In this document: positions 54,444-62,082 of the stretch, piece by piece
Position numbering within the stretch: the first letter of the stretch is position 1
Layout of the letters: each line of letters opens with the position of its first letter
Assembly: GCF_013201545.1 (NCBI RefSeq)
Contig: NZ_CP053746.1
Location: forward strand, 2,941,001-3,005,000
Reading direction: 5' to 3'
Length of the DNA: 64,000 nucleotides
Source: Pseudomonas graminis
GTDB lineage: Bacteria > Pseudomonadota > Gammaproteobacteria > Pseudomonadales > Pseudomonadaceae
Position numbers and translations under genes: made by a program
Notes under the pieces: generated by a model
Database searches by the model: none
The model's input: the letters and a program-made list of their open reading frames with translations, nothing else
Told to the model about the DNA's origin: nothing

Positions 54444-54730
54444 TACACAAAAGGCTCAGTCACCGCCAATCGCGACTTGGGTGCAGGCTGAACGCAGGTC
54501 TCGCGCAGTGGGCCGAGCCGCATGGATGCGGCGAGAGCGCCGTCAGGACATGGATGTCCGTTCGGCGCGGGCCCACGGAGCGAGGCCGGAGTGAAGGAAC
54601 CCGACGAAGTCGGGCCCAACCGAGAGCAGGCACCCTTGGTTACTTGGGGTGCTTTTCCAAGTAACTCGCCGAAGGCGAAACAGTCTGCCGTTAGGCAGAC
54701 GCCCTGGATCTTTCTAAGCCACGCCGCGGA
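54444..54730. repeat. Candidate dispersed ~290-bp repeat element, no gene
   Basis: This stretch between the REP pair and nirD keeps open frames on both strands. I recall its segments (GGAGCGAGGCCGGAGTGAAG and AAGTAACTCGCCGAAGGCG) as a repeated non-coding block in Pseudomonas genomes, often mis-annotated as hypothetical proteins. No start, domain or ribosome site supports a protein. The assignment as a repeat is from memory; the window holds a single copy. Confidence 0.4.
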
Positions 54731-54747: not shown

Positions 54748-55125
54748 TTATCCGACATTTACCTCGACCACATCGCCCACCAGCCGCACCGGCCAAGTCC
54801 GCAGCCGCAACGCCGCATCCTCCAGACACGTACCGTCCTTGAGTCGGTAATGCTGCTTATATAAAGGCGAAGCGATCACAAGATCCCCGCCCAAACTGCC
54901 GATCAACCCCCGACCAATCACATTCACCCCCGTGACCGGATCACGATTGTCCATCGCAAACACCTGCGGCGCGCCACCAATGGACGCCACATAAAACAAC
55001 GCCACCTGCGCAGTGCCCACCAACGCAACCACGCCGGAATTCAGCACCAGATCCTCACGCGCACACACCGCGCGCCACACCTGAGTCTTCGGCATCTCCA
55101 TTACTGCAGCATTGGCCTGGCTCAT
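54748..55125 (-). CDS. nirD: Nitrite reductase small subunit
   Basis: A 125-residue Rieske-fold subunit of the cytoplasmic NADH-nitrite reductase. The Cys/His cluster ligands of true Rieske proteins are absent (the corresponding loops read VFAMDNRDPVTG and IASPLYKQHYRL), as usual for NirD. Its ATG overlaps the nirB stop by four bases, so it is translated from the nirB mRNA. Confidence 0.95.
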   Translation of the reverse strand: MSQANAAVMEMPKTQVWRAVCAREDLVLNSGVVALVGTAQVALFYVASIGGAPQVFAMDNRDPVTGVNVIGRGLIGSLGGDLVIASPLYKQHYRLKDGTCLEDAALRLRTWPVRLVGDVVEVNVG

Positions 55126-57683
55126 CGTGCAACCTCCACAGCGGCAATCAGATTCAGCTCTTCAGCGCGAGCCGGACGACGCTGGCTGCGCTCCTTGACG
55201 AAATGAATGTCCGGGTCAGCGGCCTTGTCATTGACGAACGTGCGGAAGCGCTTGAGTTTCTCCGGGCTCTTCAGCGCGTTCGCCCACTCGCATTCATAAC
55301 GGTCGACCACCAACTGCATCTGCGCCTCCAGTTCGGCAGCGAGCCCAAGGCTGTCCTCGACCACCACCGCTTTCAAAAAATCCAGCCCGCCTTCAAGGGA
55401 CTCGCGCCAGACCGACGTCCGCTGCAACTTGTCAGCGGTGCGGATGTAAAACATCAGCACCCGGTCGATGTAGCGAATCAGCGTCTCGTCGTCCAGATCG
55501 GTGGCGAACAGCTCGGCGTGGCGCGGGCGCATGCCACCGTTGCCGCACACGTACAGATTCCAGCCGTTCTCCGTGGCGATCACGCCGATGTCCTTGCTCT
55601 GGGCTTCGGCGCATTCGCGGGTGCAGCCGGACACCGCGAACTTCAGCTTGTGCGGCGAGCGCAGGCCTTTGTAGCGGTCCTCGATGTTGAGCGCCATTTG
55701 TACACTGTCCTGAACGCCGTAACGGCACCAGGTGCTGCCGACACAGGACTTCACCGTCCGTGTCGATTTGCCGTAGGCATGGCCGGTCTCGAATCCGGCA
55801 GCGATCAGCTCGGCCCAGATGTCCGGCAGCTCGTGCAACTGCGCGCCGAACAGGTCAATGCGCTGGCCGCCGGTGATCTTGGTGTACAGGTCGTATTTCT
55901 TCGCGACCGCGCCGATAGCGATCAAGCCGTCCGCGGTGATTTCACCCGCCGGGATGCGCGGCACCACGGAGTACGTGCCGTTCTTCTGCATGTTGGCCAT
56001 GAAGGTGTCGTTGGTGTCCTGCAGCGGCACCAGCGACGGGTCCATGATCGGCCGGTTCCAGCACGAGGCGAGGATCGAGCCGACGGTGGGTTTGCAGATG
56101 TCGCAACCCAGATGACCTTTGCCGTGGCGGGCAAGCATCTCGTCAAAGCTTTCAATGTTTTCAACGCGGGCGAAGGCGTACAGCTCCTGACGCGTGAACG
56201 CGAAGTGCTCGCACAGGCTTTTATCGACGGTGACGCCGCGGGCAATCAGTTCGTGCTCGAACACGCTTTTCAGCAGCGCTGCACAACCGCCGCAACCGGT
56301 GGCCGCCTTGGTGCAGGCCTTGAGCCCGGCGAGGTCCGTGCAGCCGCCGTCGATGGCCGAACAGATCGACGCCTTGCTCACGTTGTGGCATGAGCAAACG
56401 GTTGCCGTGGCGGGCAGGGCGTCAGCGCCAAGGGTCGGCGCGCCGTCGCTGTGGGGCAGGATCAGGCTCGAAGGATCGGCGGGCAGCTTGATGCCGTTCT
56501 GTGCGTATTGCAGCAAGGTGTCGTAATAACTGTTGTCGCCCACCAGCACGGCGCCGAGCACTTTTTTGCCATCGGCGGACACCACCAGGCGGCGATAACT
56601 GCCGGTGGCCTCATCGATATACCGGTAACTGCGCGCGCCCGTCAGCGCGCCATGGGCATCGCCAATGGAACCGACGTCGACGCCGAGCAGTTTGAGTTTG
56701 GTCGACATGTCCGCCCCGAAGAACGGCTCGGCGTCCAGATCGCACAATTGCGCCGCGACGTTGCGGGCCATTTGATAACCCGGCGCGACGAGGCCGAAAA
56801 CGCTGCCGTTCCAGGCCGCGCACTCGCCGATGGCGAAAATGTCGGCGTCACTGGTGCGGCAATGTTCGTCGATGGCGATGCCGCCGCGCGGGCCCAGCGC
56901 CAGCTCACACTGACGGGCGAGGGCGTCTTGCGGACGAATGCCGGCGGAGAAAACGATCAGGTCGGTTTCGAGGAATTCATCGCCGGCAAAATTCATCCGG
57001 TAGCGGTATTCCGCACCCGCGCTGATGGATTGCGTCGCGCGAGACAGATGCACGCCAACCCCCAGCGCTTCGATGCGCGCCTTCAGGGCGGCGCCGCCGT
57101 GATCGTCCAGCTGAACCGGCATCAGGCGCGGCGCGAATTCCACCACGTGGGCTTCCAGTCCCAGTGACTTCAGCGCGTTGGCCGCTTCCAGTCCCAGCAG
57201 CCCGCCGCCGACCACCACACCGCGTTTCGCCTGACTGGCCGCGGCGCGAATGGTGTCGAGGTCATCCAGCGTGCGGTAGACCAGTCGCGAATGGCCTTCA
57301 GCGCCTTCGATGGGCGGCACGAAAGGGTAGGAACCCGTCGCCAGCACCAGTTTGTCGTAACTGAAGTGGCCCTTGGCGGTCACCACTTCGCGCCGCGCCC
57401 GGTCGATTTCCAGCACCGGCACACCCAGGTGCAGCGCAAGCCCGGTCTGCTCATATAAAGAAGCAGCGCTCATCGCCAGTGACTCGGCGTCGCGACCGCC
57501 AAAGTATTCGGACAGATGCACGCGGTCGTAGGCGCGCTGGCCTTCCTCACCGAACACATGAATGCGGTAGCGCTCAAGGGCGCCGGCGGCGATCAGCTGC
57601 TCGACGCAGTGGTGACCCACCATGCCGTTGCCGATGACGATCAGGGTTTGGACGTCGTTGAGTGGGGCGACTGTGGTGTTCAT
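55122..57683 (-). CDS. nirB: Nitrite reductase large subunit (NADH, siroheme)
   Basis: An 853-residue cytoplasmic flavo-siroheme enzyme that reduces nitrite to ammonium for assimilation. Domains in order: FAD/NAD fold (IVIGNGMVGHHC at ~15-27, second NAD fold VVVGGGLLGLEAANAL), a BFD [2Fe-2S] domain (CSCHNVSKASIC ... GCGGCAALL), the ferredoxin-like half, and the siroheme/[4Fe-4S] cysteines CVGSTWC and CTRECAE. Full length. Transcribed from a sigma-54 promoter and a ~208-nt leader with an attenuator (listed separately), diverging from the nitrate reductase gene. Confidence 0.97.
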   Translation of the reverse strand: MNTTVAPLNDVQTLIVIGNGMVGHHCVEQLIAAGALERYRIHVFGEEGQRAYDRVHLSEYFGGRDAESLAMSAASLYEQTGLALHLGVPVLEIDRARREVVTAKGHFSYDKLVLATGSYPFVPPIEGAEGHSRLVYRTLDDLDTIRAAASQAKRGVVVGGGLLGLEAANALKSLGLEAHVVEFAPRLMPVQLDDHGGAALKARIEALGVGVHLSRATQSISAGAEYRYRMNFAGDEFLETDLIVFSAGIRPQDALARQCELALGPRGGIAIDEHCRTSDADIFAIGECAAWNGSVFGLVAPGYQMARNVAAQLCDLDAEPFFGADMSTKLKLLGVDVGSIGDAHGALTGARSYRYIDEATGSYRRLVVSADGKKVLGAVLVGDNSYYDTLLQYAQNGIKLPADPSSLILPHSDGAPTLGADALPATATVCSCHNVSKASICSAIDGGCTDLAGLKACTKAATGCGGCAALLKSVFEHELIARGVTVDKSLCEHFAFTRQELYAFARVENIESFDEMLARHGKGHLGCDICKPTVGSILASCWNRPIMDPSLVPLQDTNDTFMANMQKNGTYSVVPRIPAGEITADGLIAIGAVAKKYDLYTKITGGQRIDLFGAQLHELPDIWAELIAAGFETGHAYGKSTRTVKSCVGSTWCRYGVQDSVQMALNIEDRYKGLRSPHKLKFAVSGCTRECAEAQSKDIGVIATENGWNLYVCGNGGMRPRHAELFATDLDDETLIRYIDRVLMFYIRTADKLQRTSVWRESLEGGLDFLKAVVVEDSLGLAAELEAQMQLVVDRYECEWANALKSPEKLKRFRTFVNDKAADPDIHFVKERSQRRPARAEELNLIAAVEVAR

Positions 57684-57722: not shown

Positions 57723-57761
57723 AAAAAAAAAGGCGCCCGGAACCTCTCGGTTCCAGGCGCC
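57723..57761 (-). terminator. Leader terminator (attenuator) of nirBD
   Basis: On the minus strand the stem GGCGCC-T-GGAACC / GGTTCC-G-GGCGCC (57761 to 57732) is followed by nine T residues (57731-57723). It lies 40 bp before the nirB start codon, so it stops transcription before the gene unless prevented. Its 5' arm overlaps the second hexaloop hairpin. Confidence 0.93.
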
Positions 57762-57769
57762 TTTGCCTG
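57754..57769 (-). promoter_or_regulatory. ANTAR-type hairpin P2 of the nirBD leader
   Basis: Minus-strand CAGGC-AAAGGC-GCCTG: a 5-bp stem with a six-base loop, A at position 1 and G at 4. Eight of its bases (57754-57761) also form the 5' arm of the terminator, so the two structures exclude each other. Confidence 0.85.
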
Positions 57770-57840
57770 TTCTTTTAAGGGTTGCCGCCCGACCACAGTG
57801 TCGACGCCAACCTGGTGAGCCCGATGCCGCGAACGGCTGG

Positions 57841-57856
57841 CGGTCCGCGTTGACCG
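57841..57856 (-). promoter_or_regulatory. ANTAR-type hairpin P1 of the nirBD leader
   Basis: Minus-strand CGGTC-AACGCG-GACCG: a 5-bp stem and hexaloop with A1 and G4, about 35 nt after the predicted transcription start and ~70 nt before P2. Confidence 0.8.
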
Positions 57857-57901: not shown

Positions 57902-57917
57902 AGCAATGGCTGTGCCA
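57902..57917 (-). promoter_or_regulatory. Sigma-54 promoter of nirBD
   Basis: Minus-strand TGGCACAGCCATTGCT matches the -24/-12 consensus TGGCACG-N4-TTGCW except one base (A for G). GG and GC are at the exact required spacing. Predicted start near 57891, giving a ~208-nt leader. An enhancer-binding activator (NtrC expected) is required; its sites were not found with certainty. Confidence 0.85.
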
Positions 57918-58141: not shown

Positions 58142-58157
58142 TGGCCTGTCGTTTGCA
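58142..58157 (+). promoter_or_regulatory. Sigma-54 promoter of the nitrate reductase gene
   Basis: TGGCCTGTCGTTTGCA: TGGC, G at position 7 and TTGCA match the consensus, with AC replaced by CT at positions 5-6. The GG-GC spacing is exact. Predicted start near 58168, four bases before the first leader hairpin. Confidence 0.75.
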
Positions 58158-58171
58158 ACACCGTGTCCACA

Positions 58172-58191
58172 GGCAATCAACGCCGATTGCC
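58172..58191 (+). promoter_or_regulatory. ANTAR-type hairpin P1 of the nitrate reductase leader
   Basis: GGCAATC-AACGCC-GATTGCC: a 7-bp perfect stem and a hexaloop with A1 and G4. The loop differs from nirBD P1 (AACGCG) only in the last base. Confidence 0.85.
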
Positions 58192-58196
58192 ATATT

Positions 58197-58214
58197 CACG
58201 ACAAAGGCGCCGTG
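58197..58214 (+). promoter_or_regulatory. ANTAR-type hairpin P2 of the nitrate reductase leader
   Basis: CACGAC-AAAGGC-GCCGTG: a 6-bp stem with one A-C mismatch and the same AAAGGC loop as in nirBD P2. It shares 58206-58211 with the 5' arm of the terminator. Confidence 0.75.
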
Positions 58215-58257
58215 TGCTCTCCGTTTTTCAACGGATGAGAACAGGGCGTCTTTTTTT
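58206..58257 (+). terminator. Leader terminator (attenuator) of the nitrate reductase gene
   Basis: GGCGCC (58206-58211) pairs with GGCGTC (58245-58250) around a long inner stem with CCGTT/AACGG at its tip (58221-58234) and minor mismatches. Seven T residues follow (58251-58257). It ends 18 bp before the start codon. Confidence 0.85.
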
Positions 58258-58275
58258 GCTTTCAGGAAACGGAAT

Positions 58276-61200
58276 ATGGCGAGCAGCAGCGTAAAGAGCG
58301 TGTGTCCTTATTGTGGCGTCGGTTGCGGCATCGTCCTGCAGGTCGAGGACAACCGAGTCATCAAGGTGGTCGGCGACAAGACTCACCCGAGCAATTTCGG
58401 CCGTCTGTGCACCAAAGGCATCACCTGCGGCCAGGCGATTGCCGAGTCGGGACGGATGGAGTTCGCGTACATCCGCCGTCAGCGCAGCCACGAGCCGGTG
58501 CGCGCTGCCATGGACGCAGTGATCAGCGAAAGCGCCCGGCGCCTGCGCGGGATTCTGGATCGCGACGGCCCGGGCGCATTGGCGTTCTACGTCTCGGGGC
58601 AGATGTCCCTGGAGGCGCAATACCTGGCCAACAAACTCGCCAAAGGTTTTGTGCGCACCGCCAATATCGAGTCCAACTCGCGGCTGTGCATGGCCAGCGC
58701 GGGCAGCGGCTACAAGCTCTCGTTGGGCGCGGACGGCCCGCCCGGGTCCTACGATGATTTCGACAAAGCCGATCTGTTTTTCGTGGTCGGCGCGAATATG
58801 GCTGACTGTCATCCGATCCTGTTCCTGCGCATGATGGACCGGGTCAAGGCCGGGGCGAAGCTGATCGTCGTCGACCCCCGGCGCAGTGCCACTGCCGACA
58901 AGGCCGGCCTGTTCCTGCAAATCAAACCGGGTACTGACCTCGCGCTGCTCAATGGCCTGTTGCACTTGCTGGTGGAGAACGGCGACACCGACGCCGATTT
59001 CATCGCCTCGTTCACCCAGGGCTGGGACGTCATGCCCGGCTTCCTCGCCGCGTACACGCCCGCGTACGTCGCACAGATCACCGGCCTGGGCGAAGCAGAA
59101 ATCCGTCAGGCCGCGCAGATGATCGGCGCGGCGCAGGAGTGGATGAGTTGCTGGACCATGGGCCTGAACCAGAGTACCCACGGCACCTGGAACACCAATG
59201 CGTTGTGCAACTTGCACCTGGCGACCGGGGCGATCTGTCGGTCCGGCAGCGGTCCGTTTTCCCTGACCGGCCAACCGAATGCCATGGGCGGAAGGGAAAT
59301 GGGCTACATGGGCCCAGGACTTCCCGGACAGCGCTCGGTGTTAGTGGACGCCGACCGCCGCTTCATCGAAGACCTCTGGCGCATCCCCGAGGGCAGCATT
59401 CCGCACCAGCCCGGCGGCGGCACCATCGACCTGTTTGAGCAGATGCGCGACGGCGTGATCAAGGCCTGCTGGATCATCTGCACCAACCCGGTGGCCAGTG
59501 TCGCCAACCGCACCACGGTCATCGACGCCCTGAAAACCGCCGAGCTGGTCATTACTCAGGACGCCTTCCTCGACACCGAAACCAATCGCTACGCCGACAT
59601 CTTGTTGCCGGGCGCGCTCTGGGCGGAAGGGGAAGGGGTGATGATCAACTCCGAGCGCACCCTTAACCTGACACAGAAAGCCGTCGATGCGCCGGGGCAG
59701 GCCTTGCCCGACTGGCAGATCATCGCCAGCGTCGCCTGTGAAATGGGCTTCGCCGACGCCTTCAGTTACGCCTCGGTAGAGGAGGTGTTCGAAGAAATCA
59801 AACAGGCCTGGAACCCCGCCACGGGCTACGACATTCGCGGCGCAAGTTATGGGCGGCTGCGGGATCAGTCTTTGCAGTGGCCGTGCGCGCCAGATGACGA
59901 GACCGTGCGCAGTCCGATTCGCTACCTCAGCGATAGCGGTGCGGGCCCAGTCAAGGAAGGCGTCACGCCACGGCGGCCGATTATATTTCCCACCGCAAAC
60001 GGCAAGGCGGTATTTTTCCCACGTCCGCACATGCCGCCGGCTGAACTGCCTAACGATGCATTTCCCATGGTGCTCAACACCGGCCGCCTGCAGCACCAAT
60101 GGCACACCCTGACCAAGACCGGGAAAGTGCCGACGCTGAACGCGCTGAATGCACGCCCGTTCGTCGAACTGCACCCTGACGATGCCCTTGCGCTGGGCAT
60201 CCGCGAAGGCGATGGCGTGGAAATCCGTTCCGCACGGGGGCTGGCGGTGTTGCCTGCGGTGATCAGCAACCGTGTCCTGCCGGGCAACTGCTTCGCGCCC
60301 TTTCACTGGAATGACGTGTACGGCGAAAAGCTGGCGATCAACGCCGTGACCAACGACGCCGTCGACCCGATCTCCCGGCAGCCCGAATTCAAGTGCTGCG
60401 CGGTCGCCTTGCGCAAGGTCGAGCTGATCGGGCATCGCTTCCTCGATTTGCCCCAAGCGGCGGCCGAGACGCAGACGGCACCCAATCATGCGCCGCTGTT
60501 GACGCTGCTTTGGGCATCCCAGACCGGGAATGCCGAAGCGTTGGCCCGGCAGTTCGGCGACCGGTTGAAGACTGCCGGTGTGCCGGTTCAGGTGGCGGCG
60601 ATGGACAGTTTTTCTTCCGAGCGTCTGGACCAGCTGCAGAACGTCGCGCTGATCAGTAGCACGTTTGGCGATGGCGAATCTCCCGACAATGGGCAACGAT
60701 TCTGGCAAATACTGGCTGCCCGGAACGAGCGTCTGGAGTCGCTGCGCTACGCCGTTCTGGCGCTCGGTGATTCGAGTTACGACCGCTTTTGCCAGCACGG
60801 CAAGAACCTCGACCAGCGCCTGCAACAGCTGGGCGCTTCACGGCTGATCGCCAGAGTCGAGTGCGACGGCGAATACCAGGCCCACGCAGACAGCTGGTTC
60901 ACCGGGTTGCAGCAGGCGCTGTCGCTGAATCTTCCTACCCCGTCGATCAGCGATGAAGCGCAGCTTTGTGGGAACCAGCCTTCAAGAACACAGCCCCATC
61001 TCGCGCGTTTGTCGCTCAATCGGCGACTGAATGGGCACGGTGCCGCCAAGGACACGCGGCAACTGGGGCTGAGCCTTGAGGACTCGGGGATGACCTATGA
61101 AGCGGGCGATGCCTTGGGGGTCTGGCCGCGCAATTGCCCTGAGCTGGTGAACGAACTGCTCGAACTCACGGGGCTGAACGCCGACCAACCGGTGCGCGGC

Positions 61201-62082
61201 ATAAAGGCTGGCGACGTGCCGCTGGGTCAGGCGTTGGCCGAGCAATTCGAAATCGCGCGACCTGGCGCAGACACCTTGGCGTTCATCGCCGAGCGTAACG
61301 GCAGCAATGACCTGAAAACACTCCTGACCGAGCCGTTCAAAAGCGAGCTGAAGGACTGGTTGTGGGGCCGACAGTTGACCGACGTGTTGCGCGAGTTCCC
61401 CATCGCCTGCTCTGCGGAGGAATGGCTTGACCATCTCAAACCGCTGCAGCCCCGGCTTTATTCGATCTCGTCGAGCGCCAAGGCGCATCCCGATGAAGTC
61501 CACCTGACGGTTTCCGCCGTGCGCTTCGGTCTGCGCAAAGGCGTTTCATCGACCTTCCTGGCGGATCGTGCGGGCAATTGCAAGGTGCCAATTTTCCTGC
61601 AACCTACGCGGCATTTTCGCCCTCCGCTGGATGGAGATGTGCCGATGATCATGATCGGCCCAGGCACCGGGGTGGCGCCGTTCCGGGCGTTTCTACAGGA
61701 GCGGCGCGCCCGCGGCGACCGGGGCCGTAACTGGCTGTTCTTCGGCGAGCAGCATCAGGCCACCGACTTTTACTACCGCGACGAACTGCAAGGCCTGCAG
61801 CAGGACGGCCTGCTGACCCGGCTGAGCCTGGCGTTTTCGCGGGATCAGGCGGAGAAGATCTACGTTCAGCAGCGCATACAGGAGCAGGGCGCTGAACTCT
61901 GGCGGTGGCTGGAGGAGGGTGCGCACCTGTACATCTGCGGTGATGCTTCGCGGATGGCGCGGGATGTCGATCAGGCGCTGCGTCGCGTGATCAGCGAACA
62001 GGGCGGCGTCAGCCTGGAAAAAGCGGCCGAACAGTTGCGCTGTCTGACCGAGCAAAAGCGCTACCTGCGGGACGTGTATTAG
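58276..62082 (+). CDS. nasA: Assimilatory nitrate reductase fused to a CysJ-like flavoreductase
   Basis: A 1268-residue fusion protein. Residues ~1-700 form a molybdopterin nitrate reductase of the Nas/NarB type: the [4Fe-4S] ligands CPYCGVGC (Cys10, 13, 17) and a Cys in GRLCTKG, then molybdopterin domains. From ~740 a flavodoxin domain (LLWASQTGNAEALARQFG) and an FAD/NADPH ferredoxin-reductase domain (YSISSSAKAHPDEV, MIGPGTGVAPFRAF, YICGDASRMARDVD) follow as in sulfite reductase CysJ. The fusion would pass electrons from NADPH straight to the molybdenum site. The start was placed at ATG 58276; frame extension upstream covers the leader. It is known in pseudomonads as a bifunctional-named protein. 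Confidence 0.95.
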   Translation: MASSSVKSVCPYCGVGCGIVLQVEDNRVIKVVGDKTHPSNFGRLCTKGITCGQAIAESGRMEFAYIRRQRSHEPVRAAMDAVISESARRLRGILDRDGPGALAFYVSGQMSLEAQYLANKLAKGFVRTANIESNSRLCMASAGSGYKLSLGADGPPGSYDDFDKADLFFVVGANMADCHPILFLRMMDRVKAGAKLIVVDPRRSATADKAGLFLQIKPGTDLALLNGLLHLLVENGDTDADFIASFTQGWDVMPGFLAAYTPAYVAQITGLGEAEIRQAAQMIGAAQEWMSCWTMGLNQSTHGTWNTNALCNLHLATGAICRSGSGPFSLTGQPNAMGGREMGYMGPGLPGQRSVLVDADRRFIEDLWRIPEGSIPHQPGGGTIDLFEQMRDGVIKACWIICTNPVASVANRTTVIDALKTAELVITQDAFLDTETNRYADILLPGALWAEGEGVMINSERTLNLTQKAVDAPGQALPDWQIIASVACEMGFADAFSYASVEEVFEEIKQAWNPATGYDIRGASYGRLRDQSLQWPCAPDDETVRSPIRYLSDSGAGPVKEGVTPRRPIIFPTANGKAVFFPRPHMPPAELPNDAFPMVLNTGRLQHQWHTLTKTGKVPTLNALNARPFVELHPDDALALGIREGDGVEIRSARGLAVLPAVISNRVLPGNCFAPFHWNDVYGEKLAINAVTNDAVDPISRQPEFKCCAVALRKVELIGHRFLDLPQAAAETQTAPNHAPLLTLLWASQTGNAEALARQFGDRLKTAGVPVQVAAMDSFSSERLDQLQNVALISSTFGDGESPDNGQRFWQILAARNERLESLRYAVLALGDSSYDRFCQHGKNLDQRLQQLGASRLIARVECDGEYQAHADSWFTGLQQALSLNLPTPSISDEAQLCGNQPSRTQPHLARLSLNRRLNGHGAAKDTRQLGLSLEDSGMTYEAGDALGVWPRNCPELVNELLELTGLNADQPVRGIKAGDVPLGQALAEQFEIARPGADTLAFIAERNGSNDLKTLLTEPFKSELKDWLWGRQLTDVLREFPIACSAEEWLDHLKPLQPRLYSISSSAKAHPDEVHLTVSAVRFGLRKGVSSTFLADRAGNCKVPIFLQPTRHFRPPLDGDVPMIMIGPGTGVAPFRAFLQERRARGDRGRNWLFFGEQHQATDFYYRDELQGLQQDGLLTRLSLAFSRDQAEKIYVQQRIQEQGAELWRWLEEGAHLYICGDASRMARDVDQALRRVISEQGGVSLEKAAEQLRCLTEQKRYLRDVY

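Follow-up and report, generated by a model that had tools for sequence, protein, structure and literature searches.

A very probable NasT-dependent antitermination leader, matching Rfam RF03032, before the assimilatory nitrate reductase gene of Pseudomonas graminis

The leader of the assimilatory nitrate reductase gene in the window (the whole analyzed stretch of 64,000 nucleotides of P. graminis DNA) is very probably a protein-controlled, NasT-dependent antitermination switch, as judged from its sequence and predicted folds. This reading is based on the anatomy of the leader, the terminator overlapping its second hairpin, the presence of NasT in the genome, and the co-occurrence of such leaders with ANTAR genes. 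The mechanism and the family are already known from the nirBD leader NalA in Pseudomonas; the leader described here is a new example and no new kind.

The leader starts with a sigma-54-like -24/-12 element, TGGCCTGTCGTTTGCA (GG-N10-GC), located by script at positions 58142..58157 of the plus strand. Sigma-54 initiates about 12 bases 3' of the GC of its element, and this usual geometry would put the transcription start at 58167..58168 (+). The P1 hairpin (58172..58191, +; folding and covariation) has 7 bp and the loop AACGCC, with A1 and G4. After a linker of 5 bases, the P2 hairpin, CACGAC-AAAGGC-GCCGTG (58197..58214, +; script), carries the loop AAAGGC, also with A1 and G4, on a stem of five pairs and one A x C mismatch (58201 x 58210). 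An intrinsic terminator was predicted by folding at 58203..58257 (+); its 5' arm is composed of the P2 loop and 3' stem, its 3' arm begins at 58245, and its T-run ends at 58257. These are the features of the dual-hairpin ANTAR targets of Ramesh 2012: a pair of hairpins with three or more base pairs each, A1 and G4 in both hexaloops, a terminator overlapping P2, and an ANTAR protein in the same genome. The original prediction had placed the four elements at 58142-58257 (+) and described them as an ANTAR-type switch; their coordinates and sequences proved exact, and the A1/G4 hexaloops, the terminator over P2, NasT beside NasS, and the co-occurrence with NasT and ANTAR genes all speak for the type. 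The gene that follows (58276..62082, +) encodes a protein of 1268 aa, a NasA-type assimilatory nitrate reductase with a CysJ-like flavodoxin/FAD/NAD(P) module, in which molybdopterin, flavodoxin, FAD, and NAD(P) domains were found by domain search. Its frame remains open upstream through the leader to a TTG at 58153 (58153-58275, +), which was taken as chance because the ATG at 58276 is preceded by AGGAAACGG.

The segment 58168-58266 folded with -40.9 kcal/mol and a z value of -5.98, and none of 200 shuffles was equally good. In step-wise folding, P1 was stable immediately, P2 was present once the transcript reached 58216 (-13.8 kcal/mol), and P2 was displaced by the terminator by 58252 (-39.7 kcal/mol). 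Forcing P2 in the full leader gave -27.2 kcal/mol versus -40.9 kcal/mol for the free fold, a cost of about 14 kcal/mol, and P2 never appeared in the best fold of free full-length leaders. According to the step-wise and forced folds, P2 and the terminator are mutually exclusive, and P2 requires assistance to prevail. A scan of the window (64 kb, both strands) looked for pairs of A1/G4 hexaloop hairpins in which a terminator overlaps the second hairpin. Only the nitrate reductase leader (+) and the nirBD leader (-, two overlapping readings) were detected; six dinucleotide-shuffled control windows yielded 1, 0, 0, 0, 0, and 1 finds.

The Rfam model RF03032 (narK RNA) matched positions 58143..58213 (+) with 58.5 bits, above its cut-off of 43.2. 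The only paired positions of this 72-position model, 31-50, correspond to P1. Positions 1-15, with the consensus GGCaCAgcucUUGCU, correspond to the sigma-54 element, and the last 22 positions, unpaired in the model, to the beginning of P2; the model ends before the terminator. Since a sigma-54 start lies about 12 bases past the GC, approximately the first 25 of the 72 positions would belong to the promoter and never be transcribed. RF03032 reads as a sigma-54 promoter with an ANTAR P1 and an unannotated P2. The window leader has a paired P2 and a terminator, whereas the model omits both and includes the sigma-54 element; a revised model could take in P2 and the terminator and drop the promoter. 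In the literature search, no text on the mechanism of the narK RNA (RF03032) and none describing it as a sigma-54 promoter with an ANTAR target was found, the likeliest papers, Weinberg 2017 among them, being outside the reach of the search. 

The P. graminis genome (5.52 Mb) contains two ANTAR genes. The first encodes NasT (response-regulator receiver and ANTAR) and lies in the nas cluster, adjoining NasS (NMT1_2) and two of the leaders. The second, at 4342011, is AmiR-like, with an AmiC-like protein and dipeptide-type transport genes as neighbours (by eye). In addition to the nitrate reductase leader, RF03032 matched the leader of a NarK-type transporter (74 bits) and, just under the cut-off, a sequence before nasS (42.8 bits); three further matches were weak (21.3, 19.1, and 18.7 bits). 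The nasS leader (L009:3725-3840, genome position 5030725; RF03032 search) has a P2 with the loop AATGAC, a terminator, and a P1 that was identified by eye and contains a mismatch, and therefore nasS-nasT would control itself. The genome has four leaders of the same type, before nitrate reductase, nirBD, nasS, and the NarK-type transporter, so that the 'second switch' of the original prediction is real but understated. As in a NasS-NasT regulon, nasS-nasT is present and several nitrate genes carry like leaders. A whole-genome regulon search with the pattern GRCAAWGRCGYCN{25,55}TTTTT, representing P2 with a T-run, returned 15 rows at 8 places, four of which are the leaders, and the reversed control returned 0. 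Of the other four places (4178393, 4827802, 2004466, and 4650021), the first two were inspected and rejected as regulon members: at 4178393, ahead of a peptidyl-prolyl isomerase-like gene, visual inspection revealed neither a sigma-54 element nor a P1, and 4827802 is located inside long open frames. A protein phosphatase 2C-kinase fusion is encoded directly 3' of the NarK-type transporter (L009:7195-8895), and a homologue is located likewise in L143.

NtrC and sigma-54 drive transcription of this kind during nitrogen shortage. The sigma-54 promoter, seen as sequence, would start the RNA just before P1, and the transcript would be made under NtrC when nitrogen is short. P1 would fold first; unless P2 is held, its loop and 3' stem would, by the predicted folds, be drawn into the terminator, and transcription would stop near 58257. 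Nitrate or nitrite would free NasT from NasS, and NasT would then bind the A1/G4 hexaloops of P1 and P2 and keep P2 folded, letting the polymerase pass. With the nirBD, nasS, and NarK-type transporter leaders alike, a single sensor would govern the entire pathway, including nasS-nasT itself. An NtrC site was sought in the region between the two divergent promoters using a 12-position consensus; no outstanding site was found there, the best score of 8/12 being equalled in 1098 of 2000 shuffles, and the mean best score in 26 relatives was 8.8 versus 8.1 in shuffles. An NtrC enhancer between the promoters is not claimed, the best score being no better than that of shuffles.

The accessible parts of several publications describe corresponding steps in related systems. 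Sigma-54, NtrC, and NasT act at the nirBD leader NalA according to the portion of a review that was available (PMC12830290). The available text of PMC3795266 states that NasS holds NasT until nitrate or nitrite arrives and that NasT binds the nasA leader of Paracoccus, and that of PMC7261876 states that nasT deletion abolishes nitrate use in P. putida. For EutV, the accessible text of PMC8934654 describes two loops bound successively and the loss of antitermination upon insertion of 20 extra bases between them. The 5-base linker of the nitrate reductase leader fits EutV-type binding.

Conservation was evaluated among relatives of the nitrate reductase, at least 593 in number, the best 80 of which were kept. 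Alignment A1 comprised 44 rows (42 Pseudomonas loci, one MAG (L058), and the window), with 37 of the best 80 loci outside it; 75 of the 80 were scanned, and most of those outside A1 lacked the motif at nitrate reductase. The sigma-54-like element and the P2 core were present in all 42 Pseudomonas loci among these best 80 of at least 593, the core being AAAGGCGCC in 41 and GAAGGCGCC in one. All 44 leaders had a sigma-54-like element scoring at least 10/12 at a like place. The P1 loop retained A1 in 44/44 and G4 in 41/44 leaders (both in 41), and the P2 loop retained A1 in 43/44 and G4 in 44/44 (both in 43); changed P1 loops occurred in L024 and L047, and the MAG was without a clear P1. Changes on both sides of a pair were observed in 4 of 7 P1 pairs and 8 of 20 terminator pairs, and in none of the 5 P2 pairs of these orthologous leaders. 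With kinship ignored, 0 of 500 shuffles reached the whole-structure score, and all slid versions were beaten. Across different leaders, 35 distinct P2s, collected with a motif in which the first pair is fixed, were compared, and in 29 of them the fourth pair was G-C, C-G, A-U, U-A, or G-U. With a stricter script, P1 went undetected in 5 of the 44 nitrate reductase leaders and in the nasS leader, and P2 in 1 of the 44.

The facing nirBD leader on the minus strand contains a sigma-54-like element, TGGCACAGCCATTGCT (57902..57917; script), P1 with the loop AACGCG (57842..57855; script and scan), and P2 with the loop AAAGGC (about 57753..57769), overlapped by a terminator reaching to about 57722 (fold and scan). 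It precedes nirB (55122..57683, -), the nitrite reductase large subunit of 853 aa, and nirD (54748..55125, -), a Rieske-type small subunit of 125 aa, both assigned by ORF and domains. Downstream of nirD, at 54510-54574 (+), a sub-threshold match to the TwoAYGGAY RNA was recorded (35.3 bits, cut-off 43), with two CATGGATG hairpins. Between P1 and P2 of the nirBD leader, about 72 bases apart, the scan located a third A1/G4 hexaloop hairpin, with the loop ACTGTG (57789-57805, -), which may be the real P1. In the nirB leaders of relatives, this middle hairpin had ACNGNN or a similar loop in several cases and elsewhere had G1 or was absent (by eye). The comparison of loops made beforehand was correct: P2 is identical (AAAGGC), and P1 differs by one base (AACGCC versus AACGCG). 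The same order of parts had been proposed for both leaders; all parts are indeed shared, but the third hairpin makes the order inexact. Likewise, the description as conserved loops on variable stems is valid between the window leaders and among P1 orthologues (4/7), but not among P2 orthologues (0/5), and the proposed P2 of the nitrate reductase leader is present but weak, at -3.0 kcal/mol versus -8.6 kcal/mol for the P2 of the window nirBD leader. A divergent nirB was found upstream in 26 of the 80 loci, preceded by a sigma-54-like element in 26/26; P1 and P2 were detected in 23/26 and a P2 of at least five pairs in 25/26, in a hairpin count that covered the loops AA.. or AC.. only. Since the nirB leaders of this 26-locus set carry the same elements, the divergent pair of switches must be old in the genus.

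RF03032 did not match the window nirBD leader, though the same elements are present, because its P1-P2 distance is long. The leader scored 24.1 bits with the RF00625 (P11) model (cut-off 70), and the P. graminis genome gave no RF00625 match at an E-value of 0.001. P11 was found in 99 of 149 Pseudomonas genomes, in 85 above its cut-off, and 30 loci (L101-L130) from these 99 genomes were inspected. In 30/30, P11 lies directly before nirB, with NirB residue 7 or 14 encoded 35-137 bases on, and is accompanied by a P2 core with the loop AAAGGC and a terminator; its middle hexaloop hairpin has A1 in 30/30 and G4 in 29/30 loci. By these sequence features, P11 is the sister nirBD leader and of the same kind as the nitrate reductase leader. 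Both sit before nitrate or nitrite genes with the P2 loop AAAGGC, and P11, the leader of nirBD, has an additional hairpin in the middle that the nitrate reductase leader does not have. No text equating P11, NalA, and the ANTAR target was found in the literature search, the likeliest papers being outside its reach. Romeo 2012 and Nie 2024 are said to be the references on the nirBD leader NalA with NasT. In the accessible text of an eLife 2025 article (PMC12080996), P11 is tied to the nirB/nirD/nasC operon and appears by name in research on how avoidance of pathogens is inherited in C. elegans; NalA is the name given to the nirBD leader in the available portion of the review PMC12830290.

The two P2 hairpins of the divergent pair differ in strength. 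The A x C mismatch, read from alignment A1, occurs in 43 of the 44 nitrate reductase leaders. The predicted median P2 energy was -3.0 kcal/mol for nitrate reductase versus -8.6 kcal/mol for the facing nirB, values of naked RNA that need not rank NasT-bound states, and the nitrate reductase P2 was weaker in 27/27 pairs. Because these pairs are kin and their P2 sequences are nearly invariant, the difference corresponds to one evolutionary event or to a few. The terminator does not dictate the mismatch: the nirBD leader also has an AAAGGCGCC arm, and there the corresponding position is paired. The weaker nitrate reductase P2 was not found in print by the literature search, whose reach excluded the likeliest papers. 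It is conceivable, though rather unlikely, that the two switches are tuned differently on purpose, nirBD opening before nitrate reductase as NasT rises; toxic nitrite would then not be made before its consumer nirBD is present. Unequal P2s may offer a test case for whether antitermination leaders determine the order in which genes are induced when the intermediate of a pathway is toxic. Terminator medians were -33.2 for nitrate reductase and -26.2 for nirB, where a value of -1.7 in L027 is an artefact of an inner T-run, and in the window the relation is reversed (-29.6 versus -31.6). Terminator strength was rejected as part of the unequal tuning, as the window runs the opposite way, and the P2 difference alone is claimed.

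Co-occurrence was calculated for 149 Pseudomonas genomes, with RF03032 accepted at E-values to 0.01 and NasT to 1e-20. NasT was present in 129 of 133 genomes with RF03032 and in 0 of 16 without it (p 4e-18, kinship ignored). Seven of the 20 genomes without NasT have a leader (P11 in G001, G018, and G143; RF03032 in G043, G068, G003, and G083). Five of them (G001, G018, G143, G043, and G068; L151-L155) have an ANTAR gene whose open frame is long, and in all three tested (G001, G018, and G068) it encodes a NasR-like NIT and ANTAR protein. An ANTAR gene was not found in G003, with a weak RF03032 match, or G083 (RF03032 E-value 4e-8), and one of the 13 genomes with neither NasT nor a leader has such a gene (G051). 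Leaders without NasT but with another ANTAR gene indicate that the antiterminator is kept with the leader and that the sensor may change. Judging by gene content, NasR replaces NasT in some Pseudomonas genomes; this replacement was not found in print by the literature search, the likeliest papers lying outside its reach. In the class sample of 377 genomes, RF03032 (E-value to 0.001) was detected in 21, in four over and in 17 below the cut-off, and an ANTAR gene was present in 19/21 genomes with RF03032 versus 115/356 without it (p 1.2e-7). The two exceptions, G225 and G411, are among the three loci without a script-found P2; P2 was found in 17 of 20 class loci and both hairpins in 16. In 16 of 17 class genomes examined, an ANTAR gene precedes the leader on its own strand and contig, at a distance of 54-9194 bases and, in 10 of them, within 700 bases. 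Together with the class co-occurrence, these upstream genes indicate that RF03032 is an ANTAR target well outside Pseudomonas. By eye, P2 is apparently preceded by two consecutive P1-like hairpins in the class loci L168, L174, and L177.

A conserved RNA before several unrelated nitrate genes could also be a metabolite-binding riboswitch that acts protein-free, with nitrate, for example, as the ligand. For RF03032 this is very unlikely, as its conserved parts are short hairpins with ANTAR loops and no pocket-like core, the model opens with 15 positions that correspond to the sigma-54 element, and the RNA co-occurs with NasT, NasR, or other ANTAR genes. Such co-occurrence argues equally against a small RNA, in which a short sigma-54 transcript would simply end at the terminator and P1 and P2 would be incidental, as do the covariation of P1, the retention of A1 and G4, and the chance scan, which found only the two window leaders. 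Rfam classifies the sister P11 as an sRNA gene, and a review treats it, in its accessible part, as a regulator of the nir operon; even so, the small RNA alternative is slightly less probable still than the riboswitch. The same low probability is assigned to a partner other than NasT, namely the AmiR-like protein encoded at 4342011. It is the sole other ANTAR match in the genome, but its neighbours by eye are AmiC-like and dipeptide-type transport genes, none of them for nitrate, and it is NasT instead that sits in the nas cluster adjoining two leaders.

NasT-dependent antitermination, the preferred reading, has the general design of the ANTAR targets of EutV/eut, NasR/nasF, and AmiR/amiE, in which, according to the accessible text of PMC3369931 and PMC8934654, two A1/G4 hexaloop hairpins are followed by a terminator exclusive with the second; in the present case, a sigma-54 promoter is fused to the RNA element and the sensor is NasS-NasT. 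The available portion of PMC12830290 shows that a sigma-54 promoter, leader hairpins, and a NasT-relieved terminator are common to NalA of the P. aeruginosa and P. putida nirBD, whereas the switch described here belongs to a nitrate reductase that faces nirBD and is transcribed separately, and its P2 has an A x C mismatch. The reading would supply a mechanism for Rfam RF03032 and RF00625, for neither of which one was found in the literature search, and would place a further gene, and a divergent pair that is conserved, under the control of NasS-NasT.
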